Assembly (NCBI RefSeq): GCF_003367705.1 | Contig: NZ_CP031425.1 | Location: 620,001 to 684,000, forward strand | Direction: 5' to 3' | Length of the DNA stretch: 64,000 bases | Source of the DNA: Microbacterium foliorum | GTDB taxonomy: Bacteria > Actinomycetota > Actinomycetes > Actinomycetales > Microbacteriaceae | Notes under the pieces: generated by a model | What the model saw: the letters and a program-made list of their open reading frames with translations, nothing else | The model's database searches: none | What the model was told of the DNA's origin: nothing | Shown here: positions 10,098 to 35,464 of the stretch, piece after piece | Layout of the letters: each line of letters begins with the position of its first letter | Position numbering within the stretch: position 1 is the stretch's first letter | Made by a program: the position numbers and the translations under genes

Positions 10098-10352
10098 ATG
10101 AGCGATCCTGAGCGGGCCACCTCCCGCCCCCTGTGGGCGAGCGTGGCCGACGGCTTCTACGTCGGCAGCCAGGACGGGACCTTTCTCGGATACGTCGACC
10201 GGCAGCACGACGGGGCATGGCGGGCATTCGACGCGGCGTCGCGCGCCGTCGGCGACTTCTCCGATCACCACCGGGCCATGGCCGCGGTGACGCAGATCGG
10301 CGCGGTCTCGGTCTCTGCCGGCGAGCTCGAGACCCCGGGAGCGATCCGCTGA
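10098..10352 (+). CDS. Small protein coupled to the BLUF photoreceptor
   Basis: I do not recognise this 84-residue protein. The core reads WASVADGFYVGSQDGTFLGYVDRQ, which suggests a short beta-hairpin sheet, followed by an alanine-rich helix containing DAASRAVGDFSDHHRAMAAV. It is soluble, with no signal peptide. Its stop overlaps the start of the BLUF gene in TGATG, so the two proteins are made from one message with coupled translation. A role as partner or output of the light sensor is a reasonable guess only. Confidence 0.7.
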   Translation: MSDPERATSRPLWASVADGFYVGSQDGTFLGYVDRQHDGAWRAFDAASRAVGDFSDHHRAMAAVTQIGAVSVSAGELETPGAIR

Positions 10353-10816
10353 TGGCACCGCACAGCTCTCTCGTCTCGCTCGTGTACAGCAGCACCGCGA
10401 CCCGCCCCTTCGACGACGACGAGCTGGCTGGCCTTCTCGCAGTGAGCCGCGCGAGGAACGCCGAGCGGAACATCACCGGGATGCTGCTCTACCGCGAGCG
10501 TGAGTTCATCCAGATCCTCGAAGGCACGCGCGCCGACGTCGAGTCGCTCATGGCGGACATCGCGGGGGACCGGCGCCACAGCGACGTCCGCGTGCTCCTC
10601 GAAGAGCCGCTGCACGAGCGGCGTTTCGAGAAGTGGACCATGGGGTACCGACCGCTGGTCGCTGCCCAGCCCGAGATGCTCGACGGCTACCGCGACTCTT
10701 TCGACGACCTCCGCATGGGTGACCACGACATGATCGGTCGGGCCCTGATGGAGCTCACCATGTGGTTCCGCGTCCGCGAGGCGGCGCCGGGGCGGACGGC
10801 TGTGCGGACGCCATAG
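10352..10816 (+). CDS. BLUF-domain blue-light photoreceptor
   Basis: This 154-residue protein is a short BLUF (blue light using FAD) sensor. The key flavin-site residues occur at the same spacing as in the reference protein AppA: Y12, N36, Q54, W95 and M97 here against Y21, N45, Q63, W104 and M106. The motif ITGMLLY (41-47) and FIQILEG (52-58) are diagnostic, as is DRRHSDVRVL. About 50 residues follow the domain, forming one or two helices, as in short BLUF proteins that act through protein contacts rather than a fused enzyme. There is no output domain. The start overlaps the upstream stop by one base. Confidence 0.93.
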   Translation: MAPHSSLVSLVYSSTATRPFDDDELAGLLAVSRARNAERNITGMLLYREREFIQILEGTRADVESLMADIAGDRRHSDVRVLLEEPLHERRFEKWTMGYRPLVAAQPEMLDGYRDSFDDLRMGDHDMIGRALMELTMWFRVREAAPGRTAVRTP

Positions 10817-12152: not shown

Positions 12153-13028
12153 TCATCGCGCGCAGCGGAAACCCAGATGGGTGGTCGCGGAGTCCTCGGT
12201 CTGGGAGCTTCGCGCGGCGGGCCTGTAGCGCCGGCAGTACTCCGGGGCGCAGAGGTGCGAGCCGCCCTTCGTCACCCGACGTGGGGGACCTCCGGCGTCC
12301 ACGCCGAGAAGGTTGCGGCGTTCACCGGGCTGGATCGTCGGGCTCATGCTGTGACGAGCGCTCCACGTATCCGCTGTCCATTCCCAGACGTTGCCGATCA
12401 TGTCGTGCACGCCGAAGCCATTGGCAGGGAACGCCCCGGTCGCGGACGTTCCGATGAAGCCGGCGGCTCCGGAGTTGCGGTACGGGAAGTCTCCCTGCCA
12501 GGTGTTGGCCATGAGCTCTCCGTCCGGGCGCAGTTCTTCGCCCCACGCGTAGCGCGCGCCGACGAGCCCTCCTCGAGCCGCCCACTCCCACTCTGCTTCG
12601 GTGGGTAGCCGCTTATGCGCCCAGGCGGCGTACGCCGAGGCATCCTCGAAGGCGATCTGTACGACCGGATGCTCGAGGCGTCCGTCGACGTCCGATCCTG
12701 GCCCTTCGGGCGCACGCCAGTGCGCCCCGGGCTGCCAGCGCCACCAGCGCTGCCACTCGTTCAGATTCACGGGGCCGTCGGTCGGGGTGAACACCAGCCC
12801 ACCGGGAACGAGCGTGGCCGGATCAGCGCCCGGGAACTCGCGAGGATCGAGGGGGCGCTCGGCGACCGTCACGTAGCCGGTCTCGGTGACGAAGCGCAGG
12901 TACTCCGCATTCGTCACCGGGTACGGATCCAGATCGAACGCCTCGATCTCGCGTTCGTGCACCGGCCCTTCCTCGGGGTAGAAGTCGACGGAGCCCATGA
13001 GCAGCCGCCCCGCGGGGATGCGGGTCAT
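12153..13028 (-). CDS. Formylglycine-generating enzyme (sulfatase-modifying factor, aerobic FGE)
   Basis: This 291-residue enzyme converts the active-site cysteine of type I sulfatases to formylglycine using oxygen and copper. The SUMF1/FGE-sulfatase fold fills the protein. Both catalytic cysteines are present at the right spacing: C260 and C265 in SHLCAPEYCRRYR, equivalent to the Cys-x4-Cys of human and Streptomyces FGE. The motifs GNVWEWTADTW and HLGFRCAR are also typical. No signal peptide is seen, so it acts in the cytoplasm. The ATG at 13028 lies eight bases after the stop of the upstream DUF202 gene. Its likely client is the sulfatase at 16379, which carries the CxPxR motif. The presence of both cysteines separates it from SUMF1-like proteins that lack activity. 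Confidence 0.93.
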   Translation of the reverse strand: MTRIPAGRLLMGSVDFYPEEGPVHEREIEAFDLDPYPVTNAEYLRFVTETGYVTVAERPLDPREFPGADPATLVPGGLVFTPTDGPVNLNEWQRWWRWQPGAHWRAPEGPGSDVDGRLEHPVVQIAFEDASAYAAWAHKRLPTEAEWEWAARGGLVGARYAWGEELRPDGELMANTWQGDFPYRNSGAAGFIGTSATGAFPANGFGVHDMIGNVWEWTADTWSARHSMSPTIQPGERRNLLGVDAGGPPRRVTKGGSHLCAPEYCRRYRPAARSSQTEDSATTHLGFRCAR

Positions 13029-13036
13029 CGCGGCGG

Positions 13037-13390
13037 TCACGTCAGCACCGAGATCGTCACGAAGAGGATCGCTGCCGCGCCGAAGGCGACCGCCAGCACC
13101 GCCACTGAGATGAGTAGGCCACCGCCATGCGGTGTGCGCGATGACGTACCGGTCAGGAACGCGGTAAGCCGGGTCTGGCGGCGACGCGCAGCCATCCAGA
13201 TCGCGCATGCCGCCAGAAGGCCGAGGAGGCCCGGTATCACACCGAACGCCGCGGCGGGGGCCGGTAGTGCCACGGGGAGGACCCGTAGCGAGAGCAGCGA
13301 GCAGACGGCGATGGCGAGGGCGGTGCGGCGCCAGGCGAGCTCGGTGCGCTCGGGCTGCAGACCGGGATCGAAGAGCGTCGACTCTGTCAT
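13037..13390 (-). CDS. DUF202 membrane protein (second copy)
   Basis: This 117-residue integral membrane protein of the DUF202 family starts with the family motif PERTELAWRRTALAIAV (residues 13-29), followed by three hydrophobic segments (about 22-45, 48-68 and 92-114). It overlaps the upstream DUF202 gene by four bases and precedes the FGE gene by eight bases, so the three form one operon. The function of the family is unknown. The frame is open far upstream, but that part is shadow sequence of the neighbouring gene. Confidence 0.82.
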   Translation of the reverse strand: MTESTLFDPGLQPERTELAWRRTALAIAVCSLLSLRVLPVALPAPAAAFGVIPGLLGLLAACAIWMAARRRQTRLTAFLTGTSSRTPHGGGLLISVAVLAVAFGAAAILFVTISVLT

Positions 13391-13743
13391 CGCCAGATGA
13401 CCCCTGCGATGACGAGCAGGCCGACGACGAGCACGATGATGCCGAGGACGACTGCCGATATCGCACCGGGCAGTGGCAGCGACCGACGCAGAGCCCGCTC
13501 CGTCCTGCTCCACTCCCACCATGCGAGCGGCGCGACTGCCGTGCCGGCGACGATGAGGACCAGCGAGGCCGCGAGTCGGAAGCCGGGATGCAGATCGAGA
13601 CCGAGCACCTCGAGTGCCACGCCGCCGGCGATCAGAGCGAGTGCCGTGCGCGTCCACGCGAGGAAGGTGCGCTCGTTCGCGAGTGAGAAACGCGGATCCG
13701 GCTCCTCGCCGGTGCCGTACACGGATGTGGGGAAGCGGCGCAT
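13387..13743 (-). CDS. DUF202 membrane protein (YidH-like, first copy)
   Basis: This 118-residue membrane protein belongs to the YidH/DUF202 family. The signature FSLANERTFLAWTRTALALIAGG (about residues 19-41) is very well kept, and three hydrophobic segments are seen. It is the first gene of the operon DUF202-DUF202-FGE; the ATG at 13743 is the first start that gives a protein of family length. It lies divergent from the symporter at 13874, sharing a 130-base promoter region that holds a palindromic LacI-type operator. Confidence 0.85.
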   Translation of the reverse strand: MRRFPTSVYGTGEEPDPRFSLANERTFLAWTRTALALIAGGVALEVLGLDLHPGFRLAASLVLIVAGTAVAPLAWWEWSRTERALRRSLPLPGAISAVVLGIIVLVVGLLVIAGVIWR

Positions 13744-13814
13744 CCCGACATCGTATCCGCGTCCGGCTTCGGGAGCGCGGCGCGTCGGCCACGAAACTTC
13801 TTTTTCGGACCTGC

Positions 13815-13844
13815 TTGCCTTCAAACGTTTGAACTGGTTATCGT
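13815..13844 (+). promoter_or_regulatory. Promoter with a 14-bp palindromic LacI-type operator
   Basis: A -35-like TTGCCT (13815-13820) and a -10-like TATCGT (13839-13844) are 18 bases apart. The perfect palindrome TTCAAACGTTTGAA occupies 13820-13833, inside the spacer, and has the central CG typical of LacI-family operators. It precedes the symporter-LacI-sulfatase operon, so the LacI protein at 15291 is the obvious candidate repressor. The region is shared with the divergent DUF202-FGE operon. The promoter boxes are modest matches; the palindrome is certain. Confidence 0.75.
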
Positions 13845-13873
13845 CCTCTCGCCCGCTCTCGACGAGGAGAACC

Positions 13874-15286
13874 ATGACTTACACGAGCACGACAGAAGCG
13901 ATCGCCACCGCGAGGCCGTTCGGCTGGCGCGACAAGGTCGGATACCTGTTCGGAGACTTCGGCAACGACTTCCTGTTCATCCTGGCGTCGAGCTATCTCC
14001 TGATCTTCTACACGAACGTCCTCGGACTGAACCCGGCGCACGTCGGAACCCTGTTCCTGCTGGTGCGTCTCCTCGACGCGTTCACCGATGTCGGCTGGGG
14101 CCAGTTCCTCGATCGGCACATTCCGTCGGTTGCCGGGCGGTTCCGTCCCTGGATCATCCGCGCGGCCATCCCCCTCGTCGTCGTGAGCGCCCTGTTGTAT
14201 GCGCCGTTCGCGGCGGACTGGGATTACACCGTCAAGCTGATCTGGGCGACAGCGACGTACATCCTCTGGGGGTCCGTCTTCTACACGATGGTCAACATCT
14301 CCTACGGTTCCCTCGCCTCGGTGATGAGCGAGGAGCCCGCCGAACGAGCGTCCCTCTCGGTCTTCCGTGGAGTGGGGGCGAACCTCGCGGGGATCTTCGT
14401 CGCCCTCGTGCCGCCTCTGTTCATCTATGCGAACGTCGACGGCGTATCGCAGGTGCTTCCGCCGGCGTTCTTCGCGACCGGCGTGGCCTTCTCGGCCGCC
14501 GCGCTCGTCTTCTACATCGTCTGTTACTCGCTGGTGCGAGAGCGCGTGAGAGCGGTGCCGGGTCGTGCGAAGGCGTCGTTCCCCGCCCTGCTGCGTTCGC
14601 TGGCAGGCAACCGCGCTCTCCTTTCGCTCATGGGCGGCAATCTCGTGCTGATGCTGTCGTCGCTGTTGACCGGTTCGGTGGGTGCCTACCTCTGGCTCAA
14701 CTACTTCAACAACGGTGCGCTCTCGGGTGTCGCGGCGCTCGCCAACGTCGTTCCCGCGCTCATCGCCGCACCGTTCGCCGCCGCACTCGGTCGTCGCTGC
14801 GGCAAGAAGGAGATGCTCGTGGTGCTGCTCTTCGCGAGCGCGGCGATCTATCTGTTGCTCTTCTTCCTCGGAATCACATCGCCATGGGTGTTCATCGTGC
14901 TCAGCATCGTGGCCGGGTTCGGGGTGGGCATGTTCAACCTCCTGGTGTGGGCGATCATCACCGACGTCGTCGACCATCAGGAAGTGCGCACGGGGCAACG
15001 CGATGACGGCACGGTCTATGCCATCAACACGTGGGCACGCAAGCTCGGGCTCGCGCTCGCCGGCGGCCTCGGAGGTTACGCCCTCGCCATCATCGGCTAC
15101 GAGGCCGGCACCGACACACAGGCGGCAGGCACCGTGCAGGGCATCTACACCATCGCCACACTCGTGCCTGGCGTCCTGTACGCGATCGTCGCGCTCATCC
15201 TGCTGTTCTGGTTCCCGCTCGACCGCCGCACGGTCGAGGCGAACAGCGCCGAGCTGAGCAGCCGACGCGCAGTCGTGGTGGGATGA
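13874..15286 (+). CDS. GPH-family sugar:cation symporter (MelB-like MFS transporter)
   Basis: This 470-residue protein has about twelve membrane helices and the marks of the glycoside-pentoside-hexuronide:cation symporter family. These include GYLFGDFGNDFLFILASSYLLIFYTNVLG at the N-terminus and the loop motif RLLDAFTDVGWGQFLDRH after helix two, where the acidic residues bind the cation in MelB. The loop GRFRPWI and the C-terminal half with DVVDHQEVRTGQRDDGTVYAI are also typical. A GAGGAG ribosome site precedes the ATG. Its place upstream of a sulfatase suggests import of a small sulfated sugar or glycoside, which is an inference. Confidence 0.9.
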   Translation: MTYTSTTEAIATARPFGWRDKVGYLFGDFGNDFLFILASSYLLIFYTNVLGLNPAHVGTLFLLVRLLDAFTDVGWGQFLDRHIPSVAGRFRPWIIRAAIPLVVVSALLYAPFAADWDYTVKLIWATATYILWGSVFYTMVNISYGSLASVMSEEPAERASLSVFRGVGANLAGIFVALVPPLFIYANVDGVSQVLPPAFFATGVAFSAAALVFYIVCYSLVRERVRAVPGRAKASFPALLRSLAGNRALLSLMGGNLVLMLSSLLTGSVGAYLWLNYFNNGALSGVAALANVVPALIAAPFAAALGRRCGKKEMLVVLLFASAAIYLLLFFLGITSPWVFIVLSIVAGFGVGMFNLLVWAIITDVVDHQEVRTGQRDDGTVYAINTWARKLGLALAGGLGGYALAIIGYEAGTDTQAAGTVQGIYTIATLVPGVLYAIVALILLFWFPLDRRTVEANSAELSSRRAVVVG

Positions 15287-15290
15287 GAGC

Positions 15291-16352
15291 ATGGGCAGGC
15301 CGACACTGAAGGACATCGCCAGCAGGGCGGGGGTCTCGATCTCGACGGTGTCGTATGCACTGAACGACAAGAGCAGTCTGCCTCTGGCAGAGGCGACGAA
15401 GACCCGCATCCGCACGATCGCGCACGAGCTCGGGTACGTGCCCAACGGCTTGGCGCGGTCGCTGCAAGCGAGGTCGAATCGCACCATCGGAGTTCTGCTG
15501 AACAAGCCTCTGACGACGCCTCGATACGCCGAGATCGCCCAAGGGCTCAGTGAGGGACTGGCTCGACGGGGGTTCCATCTCGCTCTGCTCCACGGTGACT
15601 CGGCGGAGCGGTGCACGGACGATGTTCGCGGCGGGCTGCTCGACGGACTGGTGTTCATCGGTCACGATGACCTCGACGTGCCACACGAGCTGGCGGTCGA
15701 GGTCATGGCGCACAGGATTCCGTTCGTCGCGCTCGACTGCGGGCCCGCAGTGACGCCGGGCATCTGGTCGAGCGTCGACTTCGACTACGCCGCCGGCGCG
15801 GAGCAGCTCGTGCAGAATCTGATCGGCGAGGGCGTGTCGAGGATCCTCCACCTTCGACCGGATGTGACATCACGCGCTGATCGGACGAGGAATTCGGCGA
15901 TGGAGGCGCTCGCCCGCGACAACGGACTCGCTCTCATCGTGCTCTCCACCGGAGTCACCGATGAGATCCTCGCTCGGTTCGATCGTGACCCGGGCGGCAC
16001 CACCGGATATGCCGCGAGCGTCGTCGGGCGTCTGGATGCCGCTCGCGACTGGATCGATCAGGAGCCGGAATCCACGGCGATCGTCTGCTCCTGGGGTGCG
16101 GACGCCGAGGCGGCCTACTTCTGGATCGTGCAGCACGGTCCTCGCGTCAGGGTCGCCGCTCTCGCAGGCGGCTCTCTCGACCCGCGTCTCTGGCCGCGCC
16201 TCACATACAGTCGGCTGCCCCTCTCGGCGGCCGGAGAGGCCTGCGCGGGTCTCATCATCGACGCCAGCACGGCGAAGGATGCGCCGACGTGCGTCCTCCT
16301 CGCTCCCGCCCTCGACACCGGCGCCTCAGGCACCGGTGCGGCAGGCGACTGA
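15291..16352 (+). CDS. LacI-family transcriptional regulator
   Basis: This 353-residue repressor has an N-terminal LacI helix-turn-helix (TLKDIASRAGVSISTVSYALN, residues 5-25), a hinge helix (NGLARSLQAR) and a periplasmic-binding-protein-like sensor domain. It begins four bases after the symporter stop, so the two are cotranscribed. It probably represses its own operon through the palindrome at 13820-13833. The effector domain (about 65-350) is divergent, and the C-terminus lacks the usual RxSTxxP ending seen in many actinobacterial LacI proteins. The inducer is unknown. Confidence 0.9.
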   Translation: MGRPTLKDIASRAGVSISTVSYALNDKSSLPLAEATKTRIRTIAHELGYVPNGLARSLQARSNRTIGVLLNKPLTTPRYAEIAQGLSEGLARRGFHLALLHGDSAERCTDDVRGGLLDGLVFIGHDDLDVPHELAVEVMAHRIPFVALDCGPAVTPGIWSSVDFDYAAGAEQLVQNLIGEGVSRILHLRPDVTSRADRTRNSAMEALARDNGLALIVLSTGVTDEILARFDRDPGGTTGYAASVVGRLDAARDWIDQEPESTAIVCSWGADAEAAYFWIVQHGPRVRVAALAGGSLDPRLWPRLTYSRLPLSAAGEACAGLIIDASTAKDAPTCVLLAPALDTGASGTGAAGD

Positions 16353-16378
16353 ACGACCGATCTCGACGAAGGAACCGG

Positions 16379-17887
16379 ATGCCGAAACCCAACATCATCT
16401 TCATCATGTCCGACGACCATGCCGCTCACGCGATCTCCGCGTACGGCAGCCGGGTCAACTCCACTCCGCACCTCGACCGGATCGCCGACCAGGGGATGCG
16501 GATGGATGCCGTGTACTGCACCAATTCGATCTGCTCTCCGTCGCGGGCGTCGATCCTCACCGGCACGTACAGCCACGTCAACGGCGTGTCGTCGATCTGG
16601 ACGGAGATGGACTATCGCGTGCCCACGTTCATCGACGTTCTGCACGATTCCGGATACAGGACGGCGATGTTCGGCAAATGGCACCTCGGCGAGGAGGGCG
16701 TATCGCGCCCGCGGGGGTTCGACGCATGGAAGGTCTTCCCCGGACAGGGGGACTACGTCGATCCGCAGATGATCGATGAGGACGGAGTCTCGACCGTCGA
16801 GGGCTATGCCACCGACATCGTCACCGATCTCTCTCTCGAGTGGATCGACGGACTGGATGACGACGAGCCCTTCTGCATGATGGTTCATCACAAGGCGCCG
16901 CATCGTCCCTGGGTGCCCGACACGAAGCACTCGCATCTCTACGCCGACGGCACGATCCCCGAGCCCGAGACCTTCTTCGACGACAACGCGAGCCGCAGCA
17001 AGGCCGTCCGCGGCGTGCACATGACGATCGCCGACGACATGGGTGGCGACGATCTCAAGATCGCGATGCCCGAGGAGCTGCGCGGACCGGAGAACCGTGA
17101 GGCGCGGATGCGCTGGAAGTACCAGATCTACATGCGCGACTACCTGCAGTGCATCCAGTCGATCGACGACAACGTCGGGCGCCTCCTCGATCATCTCGAG
17201 GAGAAGGGGCTCGCCGAGAACACGCTGGTCGTCTACACCTCCGACCAGGGCTTCTTCCTCGGAGACCATGGATGGTTCGACAAGCGGCTCATGTACGACC
17301 AGTCGCTCCAGATGCCGATGCTGATGCGCTGGCCGGCGGTGATCGAGGCGGGGTCGCGGTCGGAGGCGATCATCACGAACGTCGACTTCGCTGCGACGTT
17401 CCTCGACATCTGCGGCGTCGATGCGACACAGGCGCTGCCCACCTCGCAGGGGCGCAGCTTCCTTCCGCTTCTGCGTGGCGAGGAGGTCGCGGATTGGCCC
17501 GACGCGATGTACTACCGCTACTGGGAGCACGACGACCCGATCCATGCGGCTCCCGCCCACTACGGCATCCGCACCGATTCGTACAAGCTCCTCTACTTCT
17601 ACGGGGCGGGACTCGGGGTTCCCGGAGCATCGGACGAGGTCTACGAGCCGGAATGGGAGCTCTACGACCTGAAGGCTGATCCCGAGGAGATGCGCAACGT
17701 CGCCGCCGATCCGGCGTACGCGCAGATCAAGGCCGACCTCGAGGTCACGCTCGCCGAGTACCAGCAGCGGTACGACGACGAGCCCTACCGGGGTCCGTCG
17801 ACGCCGCGACCCGAGTGGGGTCCGTACGACCACGAGATGTTCGGACGCCTGCAGGCGTACGTCGCGAGCACGCGTTCGGCCAGCTGA
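16379..17887 (+). CDS. Type I sulfatase (formylglycine-dependent)
   Basis: This 502-residue hydrolase removes sulfate esters. The CxPxR motif CSPSR places the formylglycine-forming cysteine at residue 52, within TNSICSPSRASILTG. Metal-binding D12 and D13 lie in IMSDDH, a catalytic lysine in GKWHLGE, and the second metal site in TSDQGFFLGDHG. The C-terminal subdomain ends with the usual ELYDLKADPEEM. The protein has no signal peptide, so it works in the cytoplasm on imported substrate and can be matured by the cytoplasmic FGE at 12153. The region around IYMRDYLQCIQSIDDNVGRLLD resembles glycosaminoglycan or GlcNAc-6-sulfate sulfatases (S1 family), but the substrate is not certain. It ends the operon that starts at 13874. 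Confidence 0.93.
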   Translation: MPKPNIIFIMSDDHAAHAISAYGSRVNSTPHLDRIADQGMRMDAVYCTNSICSPSRASILTGTYSHVNGVSSIWTEMDYRVPTFIDVLHDSGYRTAMFGKWHLGEEGVSRPRGFDAWKVFPGQGDYVDPQMIDEDGVSTVEGYATDIVTDLSLEWIDGLDDDEPFCMMVHHKAPHRPWVPDTKHSHLYADGTIPEPETFFDDNASRSKAVRGVHMTIADDMGGDDLKIAMPEELRGPENREARMRWKYQIYMRDYLQCIQSIDDNVGRLLDHLEEKGLAENTLVVYTSDQGFFLGDHGWFDKRLMYDQSLQMPMLMRWPAVIEAGSRSEAIITNVDFAATFLDICGVDATQALPTSQGRSFLPLLRGEEVADWPDAMYYRYWEHDDPIHAAPAHYGIRTDSYKLLYFYGAGLGVPGASDEVYEPEWELYDLKADPEEMRNVAADPAYAQIKADLEVTLAEYQQRYDDEPYRGPSTPRPEWGPYDHEMFGRLQAYVASTRSAS

Positions 17888-19847: not shown

Positions 19848-20762
19848 ATGAACCTGTCGAGACTCGACGGACGTACGATCCTCGTCACCGGTGCCAGTGG
19901 AGGCATCGGCTATTTCATCGCGGAAGGGCTCGCTCGCCGGGGCGCACGCCTCATCGTCGCCGCGCGCTCCACGACCAGGGCGGAGGCCGCCATCGATCTG
20001 CTGCCCGAACCGAGCCGACATCGTCACCTGGAACTCGACCTGTCCGACCGGGAATCGATCCGAACTGCCGGAGCCCTCATCGGCGGAGAGAGCACGCTCG
20101 ACGGGCTGGTGATGAACGCCGGAGTCATCGCCGCGTCGCCGACGTTCACGACCGGCGCCTTCGGGGTCGAATCCACCGTCGATGTGAATGTCGTGGCGCA
20201 CATGGAGCTCCTGCGCCTCGCGCTGCCCGCTCTCGACCGCGCACCCTCCGCGCGTGTCATCAGTACCGGCAGCATGCTCACGAAAGCGATCCCCTTCGAT
20301 CTCGCCAACTGGCGTGCGCAGACCTCCTACCGCCCCCGAGTCGCGTACGCCATGTCGAAGCACGCCGCCGAGATCTTGGGATTCGAGCTGGACAGGCGGC
20401 TCATCGCCTCGGGTTCGCGCATCCGATCCGTCGTCTCGCATCCAGGTGGAGCGATCGATGCGCTCACCCCCGACAGGCCGCCGCTGCATCAGCGGTCGCC
20501 GGCCGTGCGTCTTCTGGCGCCTGTCATCGCGCCGCTCTTCTCGCGGGTCGTTCAGGGCAAGGAGTCCGCTGCGCAGTCGGCCGTCGCCGCCGTAGCGATG
20601 ACGACGCCAGGCGTGCGACCCTACATCGGCCCCCGACATGTCGCGACGGGCACACCGCATCTCGCCGCGCCGGTGCCCACCAGCTCCGACGAGACGATCG
20701 GTGCCGCACTGTGGGCCGATATCGAGGGCATCCTTGGTGCCTCCGTCCTCCCGCGGGGCTGA
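19848..20762 (+). CDS. SDR-family NAD(P)-dependent oxidoreductase
   Basis: This 304-residue enzyme has a Rossmann fold with the cofactor motif TGASGGIG (residues 14-21) and AARSTTR following the second strand, which favours NADPH. The motif NAG lies in VMNAGVIAA, and the catalytic YxxxK is YAMSK. The C-terminal part is longer than in minimal SDRs and resembles the retinol dehydrogenase/WW-oxidoreductase-like group. A GAGAGG ribosome site precedes the ATG. It is probably under control of the divergent MarR protein. The substrate is unknown. Confidence 0.88.
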   Translation: MNLSRLDGRTILVTGASGGIGYFIAEGLARRGARLIVAARSTTRAEAAIDLLPEPSRHRHLELDLSDRESIRTAGALIGGESTLDGLVMNAGVIAASPTFTTGAFGVESTVDVNVVAHMELLRLALPALDRAPSARVISTGSMLTKAIPFDLANWRAQTSYRPRVAYAMSKHAAEILGFELDRRLIASGSRIRSVVSHPGGAIDALTPDRPPLHQRSPAVRLLAPVIAPLFSRVVQGKESAAQSAVAAVAMTTPGVRPYIGPRHVATGTPHLAAPVPTSSDETIGAALWADIEGILGASVLPRG

Positions 20763-20907
20763 GGTGCCCGTGCGTGGGCTGCCCGCAGGGGGATCCTCGA
20801 GCGCGACGGGGCCGTTCAAGCCGTCAGGATCGTCCAGCTTGCCGTAACCATCGTTTCCGGCGGGCGAGCGGTTGTGTCTGACGACCCTTCGGGAATCCGA
20901 TGGAGCG

Positions 20908-20956
20908 GAGCTCTGGAGATCTGAAGGCGGATCCCGAGGAGATGCGTCGCGAGTCG
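20908..20956 (+). pseudogene. Small sulfatase gene remnant
   Basis: Bases 20921-20946 are nearly identical to the 3' part of the intact sulfatase gene (around 17672-17697) and encode LKADPEEMR, the end of the sulfatase C-terminal motif ELYDLKADPEEM. One extra base just upstream breaks the frame between GAGCTCT and CTGAAGG. No other sulfatase sequence is visible around it. The remaining intergenic stretch 20763-21021 shows no intact gene. Confidence 0.55.
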
Positions 20957-21021
20957 TGGGCGGCCCCGGGCTCTTCCCGTTCCCGCGCGCGGGAGCTGAA
21001 TGTCCGTCCGACCGGTGGAAC

Positions 21022-23442
21022 TCACCCGATCGCAGGCTGCGGCTCCCAGTCGCAGGCAAGGGGGAGATCATGGACTGACGCGCCGGCGCGAAGGGTGAAA
21101 CGCCCCTCCTCGAGGCTCCAGCCCTGAGCGGTCCAATGCGTGAGCCGACGCGAGTCGATCGGGATGGTGACGGTGACGGTCTCTCCTGCCGCCGCGTGCA
21201 CGACAGCGAACCCCACGAGCCATCGGGCGGGACGCTCGATGGTGGAGTCGGGGCGCTCTGCATACACCTGAACAACCTGTTTGCCGGCTCGTAAGCCTGT
21301 GTTCGAGAGGAGCACCTCGAGCGTGTCATCGACGCGGGTCACCGCTCCCCAACTCCAGGTCGTGTATCCGAGACCGTGTCCGAAGGGGAACGCGGGCTCC
21401 GCCTCAGAGGTCAACCAGGAGCGGTAGCCGACGTGAATGCCCTCGTCGTAGGTCAGTCTGCCGTTCTCGGGAACCACATTCGTGGTCGGTGCGTCCGAGA
21501 GCGCGGCGGGCCACGTCGTCGGGAGGCGGCCGCCCGGCTCCGATGTGCCGATCATCATGCTCGCGATGGCCGAACCGAATTGCTCCCCGCCGAAGTACCC
21601 GTGCAAGATGGCGGAGACCTCGCCGGCCCACGGAAGCGCGACTGGAGAACCCGCGTTCACGATCACGATCGTTCGTGGATTCACCGCCGCCACCGCCCGC
21701 ACCAGGTCGTCCTGGCGGCCGGGAAGAACAAGGTTCTCCCGGTCGTGCCCCTCGGATTCGACCCGGGAATTCGTGCCGACGACCACGATCGCGACATCCG
21801 CACCGGTCGCGGCGGCCACCGCACGAGCGATGAGGCCGTCGGGGTCGGAGTCATCCGGGGCGATCCCCACCGTCACGCTCAGCGAGCCGGCGAGCGTTCC
21901 GGCGGTGGCGAGAGAGAACTCGGCCCGCACATCCACCGGGATCCCGACGGTGACCGGCACCGTCACCGTCGCGGACACCGGTGATGTGATCGCCGCACCC
22001 AGATCGTTGCCTCGGGCTACCGGAGCGTCCTGCAGAGCGAGCTCCCCATCCACGAAGATCTTGCCCGGGTTGGAGCCCGAGAATCCGAGCAGAATCGTTC
22101 CCGATGCCTGGGGTGTGTAGGCCGCCCGGATCTCGAGCGTGTCGGCCCCGGCCAGTGCGCTGTCTCCGCCGAACCAGATCAACTCCGTCGAGCGTCGGTC
22201 CTCGTGGGAGAGGTCCTCGCCGTCGGCATCGAAGAACGTGACACGGGCGCCTGGTTCGCCGGTGATCGGATTCGCGATCGTCTCCAGGGGGAAGCGGGAC
22301 ACGCCCTCCTGTACGACGGCACCGATCTCGTAGTCGATCTGCACGTGCGGCAACGCCTCGCGAAGACCTTCCAGAGGTGAGACGACATGCGCAGGAAGCA
22401 CCGTCGCCGAGCCGCCGCCCTGGGTGCGGGCCTCGCGGGCATTGTGGCCGATCAGCGCGATTCGCGAGAGCGCCGCTGCGTCGAGGGGGAGAGCGCCGTC
22501 GTTCGCGAGCAGGACGCTTCCCTGGATTGCGGCGGTGCGCGCAAATGCGGTTCCGTCGAGGGGAGCAGGGACCGCCGCAGATGCGTCGCCGAGAGCCCCG
22601 ACCCGTTCGGCCAGCAACAGCAGACGCAGAACCTTGCGATCGAGGTCCGACTCCTGCACGAGACCGTCGTTGATCGCGCTGAGAAGGTCGTCGTACGCGG
22701 GGGCGGGTCCCGGCATCGCGAGATCCTGCGCCGCGGGGATCGCGGCAAGGCTGCGCACAGCGGTCCAATCGCTGATGACCACTCCATCGAAGCCCCACTC
22801 GTCATTGAGGGGACTCTCGAGCAGGTCGTTCTCGGTCATCGTCACCCCGTCGACAGAGTTGTACGCGCTCATGATGCTCCAGGCACCGGCCTCGACCGCG
22901 CGCTCGAACGGCGCCAGGTAGACCTCACGCAGCGGGCGCTCGCCGACCTTGACGTTCACTGTGAACCTGTCGGTCTCCGAGTCGTTCGCGACGTAGTGCT
23001 TCGGGCAGGCTCCGACGCCGTTGTCCTGCAGCCCGGCGACATAGGTCGCCGCAAGCGCGGCGGTGAGCTCGGGATCTTCGCTGAAACACTCGAAGTTGCG
23101 ACCGCCGAGAGGCGTGCGCTGCAGATTGATGGTCGGGCCGAGCACGACGTCGACACCCTTGCGTCGTGCCTCGGATGCCGCGGCAGCTCCATATCGGTAC
23201 GCGAGATCGACATCCCACGATGCCGCGAGCGCAGATCCGGAGGGCAGGTTGAGGGAGGGATCGCGCTCATCCCAACGGGGTCCACGGACGCCTGCGGGCC
23301 CGTCAGACAGCGTCAGCGCGCGCAGCCCGATCGAGGGGAGGGGAATCGTCGTCCAGAAGTCGGCGCCCTGGATGAGCGCAGCCTTCTCTTCGAGGGTGAG
23401 CTTCGCCAGCAACGGCAACAGATGATCGGTGGGGGAACTCAA
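21022..23442 (-). CDS. Glycoside hydrolase family 3 (beta-glucosidase-like, with PA14-like insert)
   Basis: This enzyme of about 806 residues hydrolyses beta-linked glucosides, xylosides or related sugars. The N-terminal barrel has LSDGPAGVRGPRW, KHYVANDSE and the catalytic nucleophile D225 in GVVISDWTAV. The second domain holds ALPL and NAREARTQGGGSA. A beta-rich insert (about 390-530) with TILLGFSGSNPGKIFVDGE looks like a PA14 carbohydrate-binding module. The C-terminal fibronectin-like domain contains FPFGHGLGYTTW. There is no signal peptide, so it is cytoplasmic. No ATG is available; the TTG at 23442 has a GAAGGG site upstream and begins right before the conserved domain. A GTG at 23493 lies inside the palindrome upstream and is less likely. 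Confidence 0.9.
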   Translation of the reverse strand: MSSPTDHLLPLLAKLTLEEKAALIQGADFWTTIPLPSIGLRALTLSDGPAGVRGPRWDERDPSLNLPSGSALAASWDVDLAYRYGAAAASEARRKGVDVVLGPTINLQRTPLGGRNFECFSEDPELTAALAATYVAGLQDNGVGACPKHYVANDSETDRFTVNVKVGERPLREVYLAPFERAVEAGAWSIMSAYNSVDGVTMTENDLLESPLNDEWGFDGVVISDWTAVRSLAAIPAAQDLAMPGPAPAYDDLLSAINDGLVQESDLDRKVLRLLLLAERVGALGDASAAVPAPLDGTAFARTAAIQGSVLLANDGALPLDAAALSRIALIGHNAREARTQGGGSATVLPAHVVSPLEGLREALPHVQIDYEIGAVVQEGVSRFPLETIANPITGEPGARVTFFDADGEDLSHEDRRSTELIWFGGDSALAGADTLEIRAAYTPQASGTILLGFSGSNPGKIFVDGELALQDAPVARGNDLGAAITSPVSATVTVPVTVGIPVDVRAEFSLATAGTLAGSLSVTVGIAPDDSDPDGLIARAVAAATGADVAIVVVGTNSRVESEGHDRENLVLPGRQDDLVRAVAAVNPRTIVIVNAGSPVALPWAGEVSAILHGYFGGEQFGSAIASMMIGTSEPGGRLPTTWPAALSDAPTTNVVPENGRLTYDEGIHVGYRSWLTSEAEPAFPFGHGLGYTTWSWGAVTRVDDTLEVLLSNTGLRAGKQVVQVYAERPDSTIERPARWLVGFAVVHAAAGETVTVTIPIDSRRLTHWTAQGWSLEEGRFTLRAGASVHDLPLACDWEPQPAIG

Positions 23443-23482
23443 AGAAGGGCCCTTCGTCGTGTGGGGGAGGTCGGTTGGACTC

Positions 23483-23504
23483 CCGGTGAGCACGTGCTCA
23501 CCGG
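23483..23504. promoter_or_regulatory. Perfect 22-bp palindrome upstream of the GH3 gene
   Basis: Bases 23483-23493 (CCGGTGAGCAC) are the exact reverse complement of 23494-23504. The palindrome sits 41 bases upstream of the GH3 start, within a 373-base intergenic region shared with the TetR gene (23443-23815). It is a good candidate operator, perhaps for the TetR protein, or a hairpin in the leader. The rest of this intergenic region shows no gene. Confidence 0.7.
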
Positions 23505-23815
23505 CGCGCGCCCACAGGGAAGCGGGATCATGCGGGGGCGTCGTCCGCGTTCAGCAGTGGGCATCGTTCGAGCCGTCGGGCTTGCTGCTTGTCGGGGTCG
23601 GGCATCGGCCTCTTGCTTTGAGGAGAAGATCCGGTGAGCTCCCTCTGTGTGCGGGAGATGCGGCGTCACATTGCTTCAAGGAAAGGTAGCACTGAAAATG
23701 AGTATTCACTAGGTTTTAGTCACCTCGAGTCATGCTGAGTGCTGCAGGCCCGCGTCCCGAACGGCACAATAGAGTGGATGACCGATGTCGACCTTCGGAT
23801 CGAGTGACGGAGACC

Positions 23816-24463
23816 ATGGCTGATTCGCGTATGCGGAAGCCCCGCGGAGAGTACGCGAAGACACGCGCGAAACGCGCGGCTATCCTCGACGCCGCGCTCG
23901 ACGTGTTCGCCGACTCCGGCTATCATTCGGGTTCTCTTCGGGATGTGGCTGAGCGGGTCGGCATGAGTGAGGCGGGCCTGCTGCACCACTTCCCGAACAA
24001 GCCCGCGCTTCTGGCGGCAGTGCTCGATCGCCGCGATCAGCACACGTTGGAGTGGGTGCGTATGGCCGAGGGCAACGGCGAGGTGACCCTGAGTGGGCTC
24101 GTCACGACGGCGGTTCGGAACTCCACTGTCCCCGGGATCGTTGAGCTCTACTGCATCCTCTCTGCGGAAGGGACGAAGCCGGGGCACCCGGCGCACGAGT
24201 ACTTCGTCACTCGCTACGACGTCGCTCGTACCAATCTGCGCAGGGCCTTTGAGGATCTGCAGCGACAGGGCCGCATGCGGCCGGGGGTCACGTCGCAAGG
24301 GGCTGCTGTCGCCACCCTCGCCATGATGGACGGTCTGCAGGTGCAGTGGCTCTTGAATCCTGATGTCGTCGATATGGCGGAAGAGTTGAGCAGGTTCTTC
24401 AGGGCGTTCGTGGACATCGACCTGACTCCTGCCTTGAGCGGCACCTCGGGCGGGCTGGCATGA
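23816..24463 (+). CDS. TetR/AcrR-family transcriptional regulator
   Basis: This 215-residue repressor has the TetR helix-turn-helix (AILDAALDVFADSGYHSGSLRDVAERVGMSEAGLLHHFPNK), residues about 21-61. The C-terminal helical domain contains YCILSAEGTKPGHPAHEYF. This pattern recurs in TetR proteins that sit next to glycosidase genes in actinobacteria. The ATG at 23816 follows a GACGGAG site; an upstream in-frame stretch of 28 codons is not protein-like. It is divergent from GH3 and is its most likely regulator. Confidence 0.88.
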   Translation: MADSRMRKPRGEYAKTRAKRAAILDAALDVFADSGYHSGSLRDVAERVGMSEAGLLHHFPNKPALLAAVLDRRDQHTLEWVRMAEGNGEVTLSGLVTTAVRNSTVPGIVELYCILSAEGTKPGHPAHEYFVTRYDVARTNLRRAFEDLQRQGRMRPGVTSQGAAVATLAMMDGLQVQWLLNPDVVDMAEELSRFFRAFVDIDLTPALSGTSGGLA

Positions 24464-24595
24464 TCAGCCGATCTGGATCGGCACGATACCCCCCCGATGC
24501 GATGCGCAGAGCTTCGCAGCCATGAACAAGCCCTACAGGAAACGCGGGAACACCAGGACAGCACTCGAAGGCAGCTGTTGCGGCACGCGTCCCGG

Positions 24596-25639
24596 TCAAT
24601 CACAGCCGCAACTGCGGCGTATCCTCAGGCGCGAAGGCAGTTGCAGATCTATCGGAGCCGCGTCGGGGCTTTCGAGCCGATGGATCAGCGCGCGTGCGGC
24701 CTCACGGCCAAGCTGCTGCATGGGCTGACGAACGGTGGTGAGCGGAGGTTGGCTCAGTTGACTGGCGACGACTCCGTCGTAACCGGTGAGCGTCGTGTCC
24801 TGGGGAACGCGGATGCCGCGATCGTGGAGGGTACGCAACAGTGCAAGGGCGAGCTGGTCCTGCGCACAGACGAAGACCTGCGGCAGGCCGGTGGTCGCGA
24901 TGTACTCGTGTAGAGCGGTCCGCAGGTGCGGGTCATTCGCCATCACGGTGATGCGGGGGCGAGCACGAGATTCTGAGAGGTCCCATCGGGCGAGTTCTGC
25001 TCGGAAAGCGGCGTAGCGTTCCGCGATCTCCAGGTTCTCGTCGTTGCCGACGAAAACGAAATCGGAGCTGTGATGGATCTCCACCATGTGCTGGACGAGC
25101 TGGTGCATGCCGCTTGCGTTGTCAGTGTAAATGCGATCGAGGCCACCATTCGGTGGTTGCGAAATGAGCGCTACAGGAAGTCGACGGGCTATATTCGTGA
25201 GCTGCTCGGTACTGGTGTAATGCGTCATGACTGCGACGCCGTCAACACGGCCGGCGATATCGACGATCGATTCCGACCGTGCTCCGATGACCCCGCCGAG
25301 CATGGTGGCGTAGCCACGGGACCGGCATTCGAGCTCGAATCCGTGCTGGACCTCGTCAGCGTAGAGCGGGAAGAGCTCGAAGCCGTCCTCGTCCGTTGAA
25401 GTCTGCTGCTCGGCGTCGAGAATGAGGTCGAATGAGTAGAGCCCGAGCACGCCGGTGCGTCCGCCGGCGAGACCGCGGGCGCTGCCGCTGGGAACGTAAC
25501 CCAGCTGGTGCGCGGCGTCGTGCACCAGCTGTCGCGTCGTCGCTTTGACGCGTTCCGGCTTGCGGTAGGTGAAGGAGACCGTGGCAGTCGATACATTCGC
25601 CAGAGCCGCTACGTCATAAACGGTGGGCCGCTTGCTCAC
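24596..25639 (-). CDS. LacI-family transcriptional regulator
   Basis: This 347-residue repressor has the LacI helix-turn-helix TVYDVAALANVSTATVSFTY, a hinge around GSARGLAGGR and a sugar-binding domain. It ends in SCGCD, an S-C-G-C tail seen in several actinobacterial sugar regulators. The GTG at 25639 is chosen because a GGGAGG ribosome site stands six bases upstream and the domain starts at once. A longer frame would add a low-complexity RLRLRL stretch made by the repeat tract and is rejected. It is divergent from the ABC importer-GH43 operon and probably represses it. Confidence 0.9.
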   Translation of the reverse strand: MSKRPTVYDVAALANVSTATVSFTYRKPERVKATTRQLVHDAAHQLGYVPSGSARGLAGGRTGVLGLYSFDLILDAEQQTSTDEDGFELFPLYADEVQHGFELECRSRGYATMLGGVIGARSESIVDIAGRVDGVAVMTHYTSTEQLTNIARRLPVALISQPPNGGLDRIYTDNASGMHQLVQHMVEIHHSSDFVFVGNDENLEIAERYAAFRAELARWDLSESRARPRITVMANDPHLRTALHEYIATTGLPQVFVCAQDQLALALLRTLHDRGIRVPQDTTLTGYDGVVASQLSQPPLTTVRQPMQQLGREAARALIHRLESPDAAPIDLQLPSRLRIRRSCGCD

Positions 25640-25714
25640 TGTGATCCTCCCATCCGTGTCAGACGGAGCACGAGGGGGCGCCCGACCACACCTCGACGAT
25701 ACCAATATGCCCGC

Positions 25715-25793
25715 GAGACGGAGACGGAGACGGAGACGGAGACGGAGACGGAGTCGGAGACCGGGACGGAGACCGAGACCGAGACCGAGAGAG
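25715..25793. repeat. Hexanucleotide repeat tract (GAGACG)n
   Basis: Six perfect copies of GAGACG (25715-25750) are followed by imperfect copies (GAGTCG, GAGACC, GGGACG, GAGACC and so on) to 25793. The tract lies in the 315-base divergent region between the LacI gene (25639) and the importer gene (25955), upstream of the importer promoter. The remaining part of this region, 25794-25888, shows no gene. Confidence 0.92.
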
Positions 25794-25888
25794 ATGCGCG
25801 CCAACGGTGCTTCCCTCACGGTGAACGTTGCGATGGCCACTCAGGTTCTCGCATCCGTCGGTGCAGCGAAGGCTGGAATTCTGCAGGG

Positions 25889-25917
25889 TTGCGCTCCAGT
25901 TGTTACGCGCATAACAT
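25889..25917 (+). promoter_or_regulatory. Promoter with LacI-type operator for the importer-GH43 operon
   Basis: A -35 TTGCGC (25889-25894) and a -10 TAACAT (25912-25917) are separated by 17 bases. The imperfect palindrome TGTTACGCGCATAACA (25901-25916, two mismatched positions) covers the spacer and the -10 box, so bound repressor would block RNA polymerase. The divergent LacI protein at 24596 is the likely ligand. Confidence 0.72.
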
Positions 25918-25954
25918 GCAGGAGCACACATGGTGCTTAGAGACAGGAACAAAG

Positions 25955-27235
25955 ATGATCCGATCACGTCGTATGTGGGCCGCCAGTGCCCTTCCCCTGG
26001 CTGCCCTCCTCGCCCTTTCCGGCTGCAGCCGTGGTGCTGCTGCACCGGACGAAGCTGAGTCGGTCGACCTCACTTCCGGCCCCGCCACAGGACACGTGAC
26101 GATTTGGGCGCAGGGCGTGGAAGCGCAGAAGCTTCCCGAGGTGCTCGCCCCGTTCCTCAAGGAGAACCCGGACCTCACGGTCGACGTCACGGAGCTGGCC
26201 TGGGCTTCTGCAGAGAGCAAGTACCAGACGTCTGTCGCGGGGAACACGACCCCCGACATCGGCATGCTGGGCACGACGTGGATCGCGAACTACCCGCAGG
26301 CTCTGCAGGCCGTACCCGAAGGACTGGACACTTCCGACATGTTCCCTTCGGCACTCGAAGCCGCGAAGGTTGATGGCGTGTCGATCGGCGTCCCGCTGTA
26401 CCTCGACACCCGTGTCGTCTACTACCGCACCGATCTGGCGCAAGCAGCCGGCTACGACACCCCGCCGACCGACTGGGAGGGATTCCAGACTTTCACGCAA
26501 GACATGCAGTCCAAGGCGGGCTCGCAGTGGGGTATCGGGCTGACGACGAATCAGACGCTGAGCTTTTCCGGCAACATGGCCCTCCCCTGGTCCGCCGGAG
26601 GAGACATCATGAACGCTGACCAGACCGAGTGGACGCTCGATTCTCCCGCCATGAATCGGGGTTTCGAGTACTACAAGAGCTTCTTCGACAAGGGGATCGC
26701 GGATCCGGCCGGAGCCAGCAGCGATGTCACCGTGATGGCGAACGAGTTCATCTCTGGCAAGACGCCGGTCATCATGAACGCCCCCTTCTTCGGCCCGTAC
26801 ATGACGAGCATCGCCGGTGACGAATTCAACGACAAGTGGGGCGTCATGACGGTGCCGAAGGACAAGAGCTCGACGTCGTTCCTCGGCGGTGCGCTGATGA
26901 CTGTCTTCAAGGAGTCGAAGAATCCGGAGGCGTCGTGGAAGGTGCTGCAGTACCTGGCCGAGCCCTCGACTCAGCTCGCGTTCTTCAAGGCCACCGGGGA
27001 CCTCCCGGCCACGCAGTCGACATGGCAGGACGACGCACTCACCAGCGACCCTCGCCTGGCGGTGTTCGGTGAGCAGCTGAAGGCCGCGGAGATCACCCCA
27101 AACCTCACCACCTGGGCCCAGATCTCGTCGAAGGGTGACCAGCTGCTGGAGCAGATCGCTCGTGGTCAGTCGAGTGTGGACGATGCTCTGGCCGAGCTCC
27201 AGACGTTCGCCGACGGACTCGGAACAGGACGCTGA
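25955..27235 (+). CDS. ABC sugar importer, substrate-binding lipoprotein
   Basis: This 426-residue extracellular solute-binding protein (family 1, MalE-like) delivers a sugar to the permeases that follow. The signal peptide ends in ALSGC with C24 as the lipidated residue. The mature protein begins with the strand HVTIWAQGVEAQKLPEVL, and NTTPDIGMLGTTW is a typical hinge region of family 1. The phrase KGIADPAGASSDVTVMANEFISGKTPVIMNAPF fits the C-lobe. It is the first gene of importer, permease, permease and GH43; its expression is probably set by the operator at 25901. Confidence 0.92.
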   Translation: MIRSRRMWAASALPLAALLALSGCSRGAAAPDEAESVDLTSGPATGHVTIWAQGVEAQKLPEVLAPFLKENPDLTVDVTELAWASAESKYQTSVAGNTTPDIGMLGTTWIANYPQALQAVPEGLDTSDMFPSALEAAKVDGVSIGVPLYLDTRVVYYRTDLAQAAGYDTPPTDWEGFQTFTQDMQSKAGSQWGIGLTTNQTLSFSGNMALPWSAGGDIMNADQTEWTLDSPAMNRGFEYYKSFFDKGIADPAGASSDVTVMANEFISGKTPVIMNAPFFGPYMTSIAGDEFNDKWGVMTVPKDKSSTSFLGGALMTVFKESKNPEASWKVLQYLAEPSTQLAFFKATGDLPATQSTWQDDALTSDPRLAVFGEQLKAAEITPNLTTWAQISSKGDQLLEQIARGQSSVDDALAELQTFADGLGTGR

Positions 27236-27240
27236 CCGAC

Positions 27241-28158
27241 ATGACCGTCGCCCTCGGCCGGCGCGCCCGCACCCTTTCGGGTCGGGCGCGCCGGAAGCGG
27301 ACCCTCACGGCGTGGTTGTTCGCTCTTCCCTTCGTTCTCGTCTTCGCGACGTTCATGGTCGCGCCCATCGTGCAGTCCCTGGCGATGTCCTTCACCGATT
27401 TCCGCAGCAGCGACATCCGTTCGCCCTTCAACGTGAACTTCGTGGGCGTCGATCAGTACGTCAACCTTCTCGGCAACCCCGAGTTCCTGAAATCCCTTCT
27501 CGTCACGGGCTACTTCGTCGTCGTCGGCATCCCGCTGACGATGGTGATCGCGCTGGTTCTGGCCGTCGCGCTCAACAGTAAGATCGTGAAGTTCCGCTCG
27601 GTGTTCCGTGTGGGCTTCTACACTCCGGTCGTGACGAGCATCGTCGCTGTCGCCATCGTCTGGCGGTTCATCCTCCAGCCCGACGGCCTGCTGAACGTCG
27701 CTCTCGCTGGCTTGGGTATAGAGGGGCCCAGCTGGCTCACAGACCCGGCTTGGGCTCTGCCCTCGCTCATCCTGATGGCCGTCTGGCGCAACCTCGGGAC
27801 ACTGATGATCATCTTCCTCGCCGGGCTGCAAACCGTGCCGGAGGACGTCATGGAAGCAGCGTCGATGGACGGCGCAGGCAAGGTGCGCAGCTTCTTCAGC
27901 ATCGTCATCCCCATCCTGCGACCCACGCTCCTGCTCGGAGCCATCCTGCTCTCGGTCGGGTTCCTGCAGTTCTTCGAGGAGTCCTACGTGATGACGCAGG
28001 GCGGCCCGCTCGGCAGCACCCTGTCGATCAGCTACTACACCTTCAACCAGTTCGGATTCGGCAACTACGGTACCGCCTCTGCCGCGAGCTACATCCTGTT
28101 CGTGATCATCGCCGTGATAAGCGTCGTGCAGTTCCGACTTCTCCGCAGCAAGGACTGA
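27241..28158 (+). CDS. ABC sugar importer permease (MalF-like)
   Basis: This 305-residue membrane protein has six predicted helices. The EAA loop that contacts the ATPase is EAASMDGAGKVRSFFSIVIP. The gene starts five bases after the binding-protein stop. It pairs with the next gene to form the channel. No ATPase gene is present in the window, so a shared MsiK-like ATPase encoded elsewhere would power it, as is usual in actinobacteria. Confidence 0.92.
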   Translation: MTVALGRRARTLSGRARRKRTLTAWLFALPFVLVFATFMVAPIVQSLAMSFTDFRSSDIRSPFNVNFVGVDQYVNLLGNPEFLKSLLVTGYFVVVGIPLTMVIALVLAVALNSKIVKFRSVFRVGFYTPVVTSIVAVAIVWRFILQPDGLLNVALAGLGIEGPSWLTDPAWALPSLILMAVWRNLGTLMIIFLAGLQTVPEDVMEAASMDGAGKVRSFFSIVIPILRPTLLLGAILLSVGFLQFFEESYVMTQGGPLGSTLSISYYTFNQFGFGNYGTASAASYILFVIIAVISVVQFRLLRSKD

Positions 28159-28160
28159 CG

Positions 28161-29042: not shown

Positions 29043-29091
29043 CACCTGCCCGCAGAACGAGTCCGACGTTCGCCATCCTGGAAAGATCTCT

Positions 29092-30582: not shown

Positions 30583-30620
30583 CGACCACCAGCACGTTTC
30601 GGCCACATCGTCGAGGCTTC

Positions 30621-30662
30621 ACCGAAGCCGCCCACTGCCGGGGGTGCAGGGGCGGCTTCGGT
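30621..30662. terminator. Bidirectional terminator hairpin
   Basis: A perfect 13-bp stem (30621-30633 with 30650-30662) and a 16-base loop lie between the convergent GH43 and BNR_4 genes. No long T-run follows, but its place and strength make a shared terminator likely. Confidence 0.82.
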
Positions 30663-30681
30663 GTCTTGCGCTCGGAATCGT

Positions 30682-32748: not shown

Positions 32749-32807
32749 CTACTTCTCTCTTCCTTGAGATCGGTAAGCGCGCGGGGAGACTCCCGCAATC
32801 GAGCAAA

Positions 32808-32836
32808 ACGTTACGACATGCGAATAACTGCGTCAA
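32808..32836 (-). promoter_or_regulatory. Promoter of the BNR_4 gene
   Basis: On the minus strand, TTGACG (32836-32831) and TAACGT (32813-32808) are separated by exactly 17 bases, a strong sigma-70-like promoter. An AACGTT palindrome core overlaps the -10 box (CAAAACGTTACG on the plus strand), like the LacI-type sites nearby. Confidence 0.78.
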
Positions 32837-32871
32837 GGCAAGCTTTGCCATTGATTTTCAGCGCGTTCCGC

Positions 32872-32895: not shown

Positions 32896-32980
32896 CACTT
32901 CGACGTCGAGGAGCCCCATGTCTATGGTCGGTCCCTCTGTCGTCCCCAGCGGTCCTGCGTGCGCGGACCGGCTCTGCGAC

Positions 32981-35412: not shown

Positions 35413-35464
35413 CGTTTCCCTCGCGGGGCATTCGTGAAATTCAACCTGATTATGGATGAAAGTC

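Follow-up and report, generated by a model that had tools for sequence, protein, structure and literature searches.

The locus considered here, a sulfatase gene of Microbacterium foliorum and the genes arranged around it, raises the question of whether a sulfated sugar is imported and desulfated inside the cell, and which proteins take part in the process. The locus lies in the window, the stretch of 64,000 nucleotides that was analyzed, which spans positions 620001–684000 of the complete 3.57 Mb genome of M. foliorum. Two divergent operons are separated by a 130-bp gap (13744–13873). The plus strand encodes, in this order, a GPH-family cation symporter (13874–15286), a LacI-family regulator (15291–16352), and a Cys-type sulfatase (16379–17887). 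The minus strand encodes, from the center outward, two small membrane proteins of the DUF202 family, DUF202a (13387–13743) and DUF202b (13037–13393), and a formylglycine-generating enzyme (FGE; 12153–13040), and each of these genes overlaps the next. Together the genes probably form a LacI-controlled utilization module, through which a sulfated sugar would be imported and then desulfated in the cytosol.

Four of these genes had been named in the sequence-only reading, a previous interpretation of the same DNA, and all four are borne out by profile matches. The FGE matches PF03781 with 266 bits, and the symporter matches TIGR00792 with 316.6 bits, against a curated cut-off of 231.35 bits, and MFS_2 with 277.5 bits. 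The regulator matches PF00356 with 57.2 bits, and the sulfatase PF00884 with 186.5 bits and SGSH_C with 167 bits. The same reading had arranged the four genes around one palindromic operator. The palindrome is present, but the two DUF202 genes (13037–13743) between the FGE gene and the operator had been overlooked. The FGE gene is the third of its strand, and the operator is positioned in the gap between DUF202a and the symporter gene. The PF02656 matches of both DUF202 proteins exceed the cut-off, with 61.4 bits for DUF202a (scanned as 13387–13875) and 45.6 bits for DUF202b (scanned as 13037–13426). The start of DUF202a, which has 118 residues and three predicted helices, was picked from its relatives. 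The GTG start of FGE at 13040 overlaps the stop of DUF202b in the motif GTGA, and an ATG four codons downstream is an alternative start.

In the proposed mechanism, the GPH symporter would import a small 6-O-sulfated sugar or glycoside. FGE oxidizes the cysteine in the CSPSR-type motif of sulfatases to formylglycine, and would do so here at Cys52 of the sulfatase encoded in the locus. The matured sulfatase would then remove the sulfate in the cytosol. When inducer is absent, LacI would repress the symporter operon by binding the palindrome within its promoter spacer, and would probably also affect the divergent operon of DUF202a, DUF202b, and FGE. Although the DUF202 pair is a recurrent part of such modules, some of them lack it.

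The regulatory part of the mechanism can be assessed from the distribution of the palindrome. The perfect palindrome TTCAAACGTTTGAA (13820–13833) is found at a single place in the whole genome when up to two mismatches are allowed, and a control with the reversed pattern gave no match. Among 247 genomes of the genus, 16, including that of the window, encode a sulfatase with at least 79% identity to that of the module. The LacI gene stands beside the sulfatase gene in eight of the 16, and in five of these eight, the window included, it is accompanied by the symporter gene. The pattern YTCAAWCGWTTGAR is present at the module in all eight genomes whose sulfatase gene is accompanied by the LacI gene and absent from the other eight (reversed control, 0). 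A second collection, here called named loci, consists of the best 80 of 129 relatives and overlaps the genus set in several genomes; LacI and GH3 matches below 150 bits were left out of it. LacI relatives with 45–62% identity are present in 18 of the 80 named loci. The operator, within one mismatch, was found in 18/18 named loci with LacI as opposed to 1/62 without, and the symporter is also present in 16 of the 18. Twelve of the 18 have two operator sites 21 bp apart, whereas the window has one. Because the palindrome is unique in the genome and co-occurs with the LacI gene across relatives, it is very probably the operator of the module LacI, in line with the earlier interpretation. The near-identical relative G134 has an additional operator-like palindrome, TTCAATCGATTGAA, at C1:935835–935848, which was not found in the genome of the window. 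The operator would cover the spacer of a putative promoter of the symporter operon on the plus strand (13815–13844), formed by TTGCCT (13815–13820) and TATCGT (13839–13844) with 18 bp between them, which is the usual position for a repressor. In the upstream regions listed, the site often directly precedes a TA-containing hexamer, which in the window is TATCGT.

The FGE and the sulfatase appear to be partners. Formylglycine-generating enzymes are among the best matches of the module FGE in the PDB (E approximately 1e-71), and its C-x4-C pair aligns with theirs. The two catalytic cysteines reported previously as C260 and C265 are the same pair counted from the ATG; counted from the GTG at 13040 they are C264 and C269. 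The CSPSR motif of the sulfatase, also noted previously, is positioned at C52 within the PF00884 domain. A PF00884 profile search of the whole genome identified one gene, the module sulfatase, and a PF03781 search identified two genes, of which only the module FGE has the cysteine pair; the reading frame of the second (C1:1777361–1777837) contains no such pair. As the genome holds one PF00884 gene and one PF03781 gene with the cysteine pair, the two enzymes are each other's only evident partner. FGE is present in all 16 genus genomes with the close sulfatase, compared to 100 of the other 231. The description of the module as self-contained holds for the genome as it stands, but the nearest relatives of the FGE partner an AtsA-like sulfatase rather than one of the kind found here. 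No hydrophobic N-terminal stretch was found in the FGE or in the sulfatase (the best 15-residue mean is 0.87), nor in the longer sulfatase frame that starts at 16289. A methionine stands in the column of the chosen sulfatase start in four of five relatives with 79–83% identity, which is no more than suggestive, as the match itself determined their left ends.

The two best solved relatives of the sulfatase are the N-acetylglucosamine (GlcNAc)-6-sulfatase 5g2v (428 bits) and the mucin-desulfating sulfatase 7p24 (393 bits). Excerpts of PMC6994673 describe BT4656 as the S1_11 GlcNAc-6-sulfate sulfatase of Bacteroides thetaiotaomicron, in which D361 and R363 bind O4 and H447 binds O3 of GlcNAc-6-sulfate. 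These residues correspond to D301, R303, and H389 of the module sulfatase, which are conserved without exception in an alignment of 13 sequences that includes its own. BT4656 (5g2v) is the best match in the PDB, and the module sulfatase can be described as S1_11-like. The deposited 5g2v sequence has a serine in place of the catalytic cysteine. BT4656 belongs to the same family and makes the same contacts to O4 and O3, whereas the module sulfatase has no visible signal peptide and is encoded at one site with a regulator, a transporter, and an FGE.

Relatives of a GH3 glycosidase that is encoded further along the window (21022–23493, minus strand), with 52–70% identity to it, lie within the sulfatase locus in seven of the 80 named loci, an arrangement that suits an imported glycoside. 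The GH3 gene of the window, a possible metabolic partner identified by its GH3 domains, is located 3.1 kb from the module, and no copy of the operator was found beside it. The symporter is 66% identical to that of genome G043. An improbable alternative is that the sulfatase acts on an aryl or alkyl sulfate or on an endogenous sulfated metabolite, and that the symporter transports the reaction product or a different solute. The close solved relatives of the sulfatase do include chains titled merely sulfatase or arylsulfatase, and the cargo of the GPH symporter is not readable from its sequence, as no equivalog model reached its cut-off. Opposed to this alternative are the retained sugar-contact triad, the identity of the two best solved relatives, and the GH3 gene in the sulfatase loci of relatives.

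Several observations weigh against the reading of the locus as a LacI-controlled sulfated-sugar module. The L-galactose-6-sulfatase 7lha shares the D/R/H triad, which is hence not diagnostic of GlcNAc. A scan for consensus sigma-70 promoters found none at the operator. In eight of the 16 genus genomes, the sulfatase gene lacks both an adjacent LacI relative and the operator, and the unit is therefore not obligatory. Within stretches of at most 8 kb on each side of the sulfatase gene, the 80 named loci contain FGE in 31 cases, a DUF202a relative in 10, and both in eight. Furthermore, the window FGE is nearest to FGEs that are paired with AtsA-like sulfatases. A reading of the triad as specific for GlcNAc was dropped on account of 7lha. 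Because the triad is common to BT4656 and 7lha, the sulfatase is read as a 6-O-sulfatase acting on the terminal sugar of a small glycan, for which GlcNAc-6-sulfate is one candidate. The import and intracellular desulfation proposed in the sequence-only reading are partly supported by the recurrence of symporter, LacI, and sulfatase, the operator that tracks LacI, the presence of FGE in all 16 genus genomes with the close sulfatase, and the conserved BT4656 contacts, but that proposal had omitted the DUF202 genes.

The relationships of the FGE indicate how the module may have come about. The FGE clades were given the labels A and B in the present analysis. In a tree of 29 rows, the window FGE groups with those of genomes G066, G142, and G014 with support of 100/98. 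These FGEs are 75–79% identical to that of the window, and the accompanying DUF202a proteins 82–84%. The three genomes share the order DUF202a-DUF202b-FGE, with the genes convergent to an AtsA-like sulfatase gene, and have no close S1_11 sulfatase. Their loci (L066–L068) thus carry an orthologous cassette but differ from the window in a larger sulfatase of another kind, convergent with FGE, and no relative of the window symporter or LacI was found in them. Where an FGE stands with the S1_11 sulfatase in other loci, it belongs to a separate clade with support of 100/97. Two FGEs of this other kind, L075:6892–7932 and L080:8097–9050, were seen by eye to be extended at the N terminus by a segment with a C-x-C motif, which the window FGE lacks. 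Because the nearest relatives of its FGE are paired with an AtsA-like sulfatase, the module seems to combine parts of two origins.

It might be supposed that the FGE-DUF202 operon is an unrelated neighbor, left over from an AtsA-like arylsulfatase locus that lost its sulfatase, and the well-supported grouping of the FGE, together with the DUF202a similarity, fits this explanation. We nevertheless regard it as quite unlikely. FGEs of the other clade are found in the corresponding divergent position, facing the sulfatase operon across the same operator, in five other genomes, namely in Brachybacterium (L140 and L167), Isoptericola (L149), Microbacterium sp. AG1240 (L145, the same as G139), and G096 (L080), and a DUF202 pair is part of the module in all five. 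The arrangement has therefore been reached more than once, and the same architecture with two FGE clades speaks for function. In addition, the module FGE is the only one with a cysteine pair that was found to serve the only sulfatase of the genome.

The recurrence of the DUF202 pair raises the question of whether it is linked with sulfatase systems in general. PF02656 is present in 100 of the 247 genus genomes, and FGE is found in 85 of these 100 compared to 31 of the 147 without PF02656, although the Fisher and binomial tests applied to such counts ignore kinship. FGE lies within 4 kb of 37 of the 101 listed DUF202 clusters of the genus, where 0.26 would be expected by chance; the cluster count drew on 150 listed DUF202 rows, from 96 of the 100 genomes, and 134 FGE rows. 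The gene order is FGE-DUF202a-DUF202b in 17 of 20 class-B loci and DUF202a-DUF202b-FGE beside FGEs of the window's kind. In the wider phylum, DUF202 is present in 18 of 23 genomes with FGE and in 62 of 246 genomes overall. The two genes are within 8 kb of each other in three of these 18 genomes (that of the window, G296, and G320) and apart in the other 15. FGE, a sulfatase match, and DUF202 lie within approximately 8 kb of each other in G320 and at two loci of G296.

Sulfatase maturases of a different type are found beside DUF202 genes in Enterobacterales. A Serratia plasmid has the order sulfatase, GntR, DUF202, DUF202, anaerobic sulfatase maturase (anSME), and a record of Enterobacter hormaechei has the order yidH, yidG, maturase; both maturases pass TIGR03942. 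In Escherichia coli, YidF overlaps YidG and aligns to residues 159–364 of the Enterobacter maturase (29% identity, E 2e-20), without the radical-SAM half. E. coli YidF and the product of "chuR_3" of Klebsiella aerogenes look like C-terminal remnants of anSME, which is of full length behind yidH-yidG in E. hormaechei. The remnant and full-length maturases are located at L085:5115–5612 (E. coli yidF), L257:6696–7184, and L258:6697–7800. The E. coli sulfatase YidJ and symporter YidK are encoded directly beyond yidI. A plasmid of Mycolicibacterium rufum (L237:4852–6651) carries a DUF202 pair immediately after a gene resembling that of sulfite dehydrogenase, whose product might be a further source of sulfate.

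Plasmid-borne DUF202 loci were surveyed in 25 of 30 records (H1–H5 were left out), of which six (H11, H13, H15, H16, H19, and H29) are unannotated. Of the 17 annotated loci from outside the enterobacteria, six contain a gene for a sulfatase, FGE, or anSME no more than 6 kb away (H8, H14, H18, H21, H23, and H27), three have other sulfur genes alone (H9, H12, and H22), and eight have nothing evident of either kind (H10, H17, H20, H24, H25, H26, H28, and H30), among which H20 and H24 have most of their neighbors in common. The two enterobacterial loci of the set contain a full-length anSME (H7) and a short relative of it (H6). Three control stretches from the same plasmids contain no sulfatase, FGE, or anSME.

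A less likely reading is that the DUF202 pair is functionally unlinked to sulfatases and is a general membrane pair brought near them by shared mobility. Loci chosen away from FGE fit this explanation: in tblastn searches of the fetched stretches, 17 of 20 such loci in the genus and all 20 in the phylum had no sulfatase or FGE match. Of the remaining genus loci, two have AtsA, and one has a sulfatase-FGE group 6–11 kb away. The phylum loci gave weak sulfite-oxidase-like matches of 47–51 bits in three cases, one 4Fe-4S match, and one rhodanese match. A Pfam search of 144 of the 154 neighbors at these orphan loci showed nothing sulfur-related beyond two sulfatases among the 25 commonest of 129 families. 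Moreover, 15 of the 100 genus genomes with DUF202 lack FGE, and DUF202 is missing from two of the 16 genomes that encode the close sulfatase. Against this explanation stand the excess of listed clusters close to FGE and the finding that the pair overlaps or adjoins both FGE and anSME, maturases unrelated to each other, across two phyla and in differing gene orders. A role of DUF202 as a general sulfur gene was not borne out by the orphan loci.

Predicted structure offers a possible function for the pair. The model of DUF202a consists of three long helices, with a mean predicted local distance difference test (pLDDT) score of 79. A profile of DUF202a and its relatives matches VTC1 weakly (E 0.002). 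According to excerpts of PMC9911596, yeast VTC1 is a membrane subunit of the polyphosphate polymerase, and K24 and R31 are residues of its channel. The ten best Foldseek matches of the model are chains of the VTC complex, with probabilities of 0.82–1.00 but E values of 0.026–1.6. Z scores are 11.6–12.2 for VTC chains and 10.2 for the best unrelated helical chain, too small a margin to discriminate among helical bundles. K24 and R31 of VTC1, basic residues of transmembrane helix 1, correspond to R18 and R25 of DUF202a, which are invariant in ten aligned rows including E. coli YidH. Based on the resemblance to VTC1 and the invariant arginines, our guess is that the DUF202 pair may be an anion conduit.

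As a hypothesis, we favor a role of the pair in dealing with the released anion at the membrane over one in maturation. A more specific proposal, which is tentative and rather doubtful, is that the pair (of the YidH/YidG kind) could be a VTC1-like basic conduit that exports cytosolic sulfate and has been repeatedly joined with FGE in Actinomycetota and with the radical-SAM anSME in Enterobacterales. A function as a helper of FGE only, for example in copper supply, is less likely, as DUF202 adjoins anSME in Serratia and Enterobacter. Export of D-alanine by YidH was also considered and set aside: a screen picked YidH, and the transport assay showed no change, as far as excerpts of PMC10299036 report. 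A partial search of the literature found no paper that links DUF202 with sulfatases.

Among known systems, the sulfatase (ats) clusters of Bifidobacterium breve UCC2003 act on GlcNAc-6-sulfate, according to excerpts of PMC7326374. They resemble the proposed module in the use of an intracellular sulfatase for growth on a sulfated monosaccharide. The window differs from them in its FGE, GPH symporter, LacI with a mapped operator, and DUF202 pair; the B. breve clusters have a maturase of the anSME type and another transporter. The enterobacterial yidH-yidG-maturase arrangement has a DUF202 pair overlapping a sulfatase maturase, and in E. coli the yidFGHIJKL genes also encode the sulfatase YidJ, the symporter YidK, and the regulator YidL nearby. 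These systems differ from that of the window in that the maturase is anSME rather than FGE, E. coli YidF is remnant-like, and the symporter is of the SSF family.

A contig labeled Planctomycetota (L139) encodes a symporter, LacI, and sulfatase with 50–84% identity to those of the window and is likely a misbinned actinobacterial contig. Elsewhere in the window, a protein with a BLUF blue-light sensor domain is encoded at 10349–10816. The stretch 20000–40000 brings together genes for the GH3 glycosidase, a solute-binding protein, a GH43 protein, a BNR_4 protein, and an alpha-L-fucosidase, and has third-position GC mostly below that of later genes of the window. It is perhaps a sugar-use island.

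A genome with one sulfatase, one FGE, and a predicted operator would provide a clean setting for testing whether an imported sugar is desulfated inside the cell. E. coli YidG and YidH, which are recorded merely as inner membrane proteins, gain a context from the recurrence of their kind next to maturases of sulfatases in two phyla. Should the coupling prove genuine, the way in which cells handle sulfate released internally would become a testable question.

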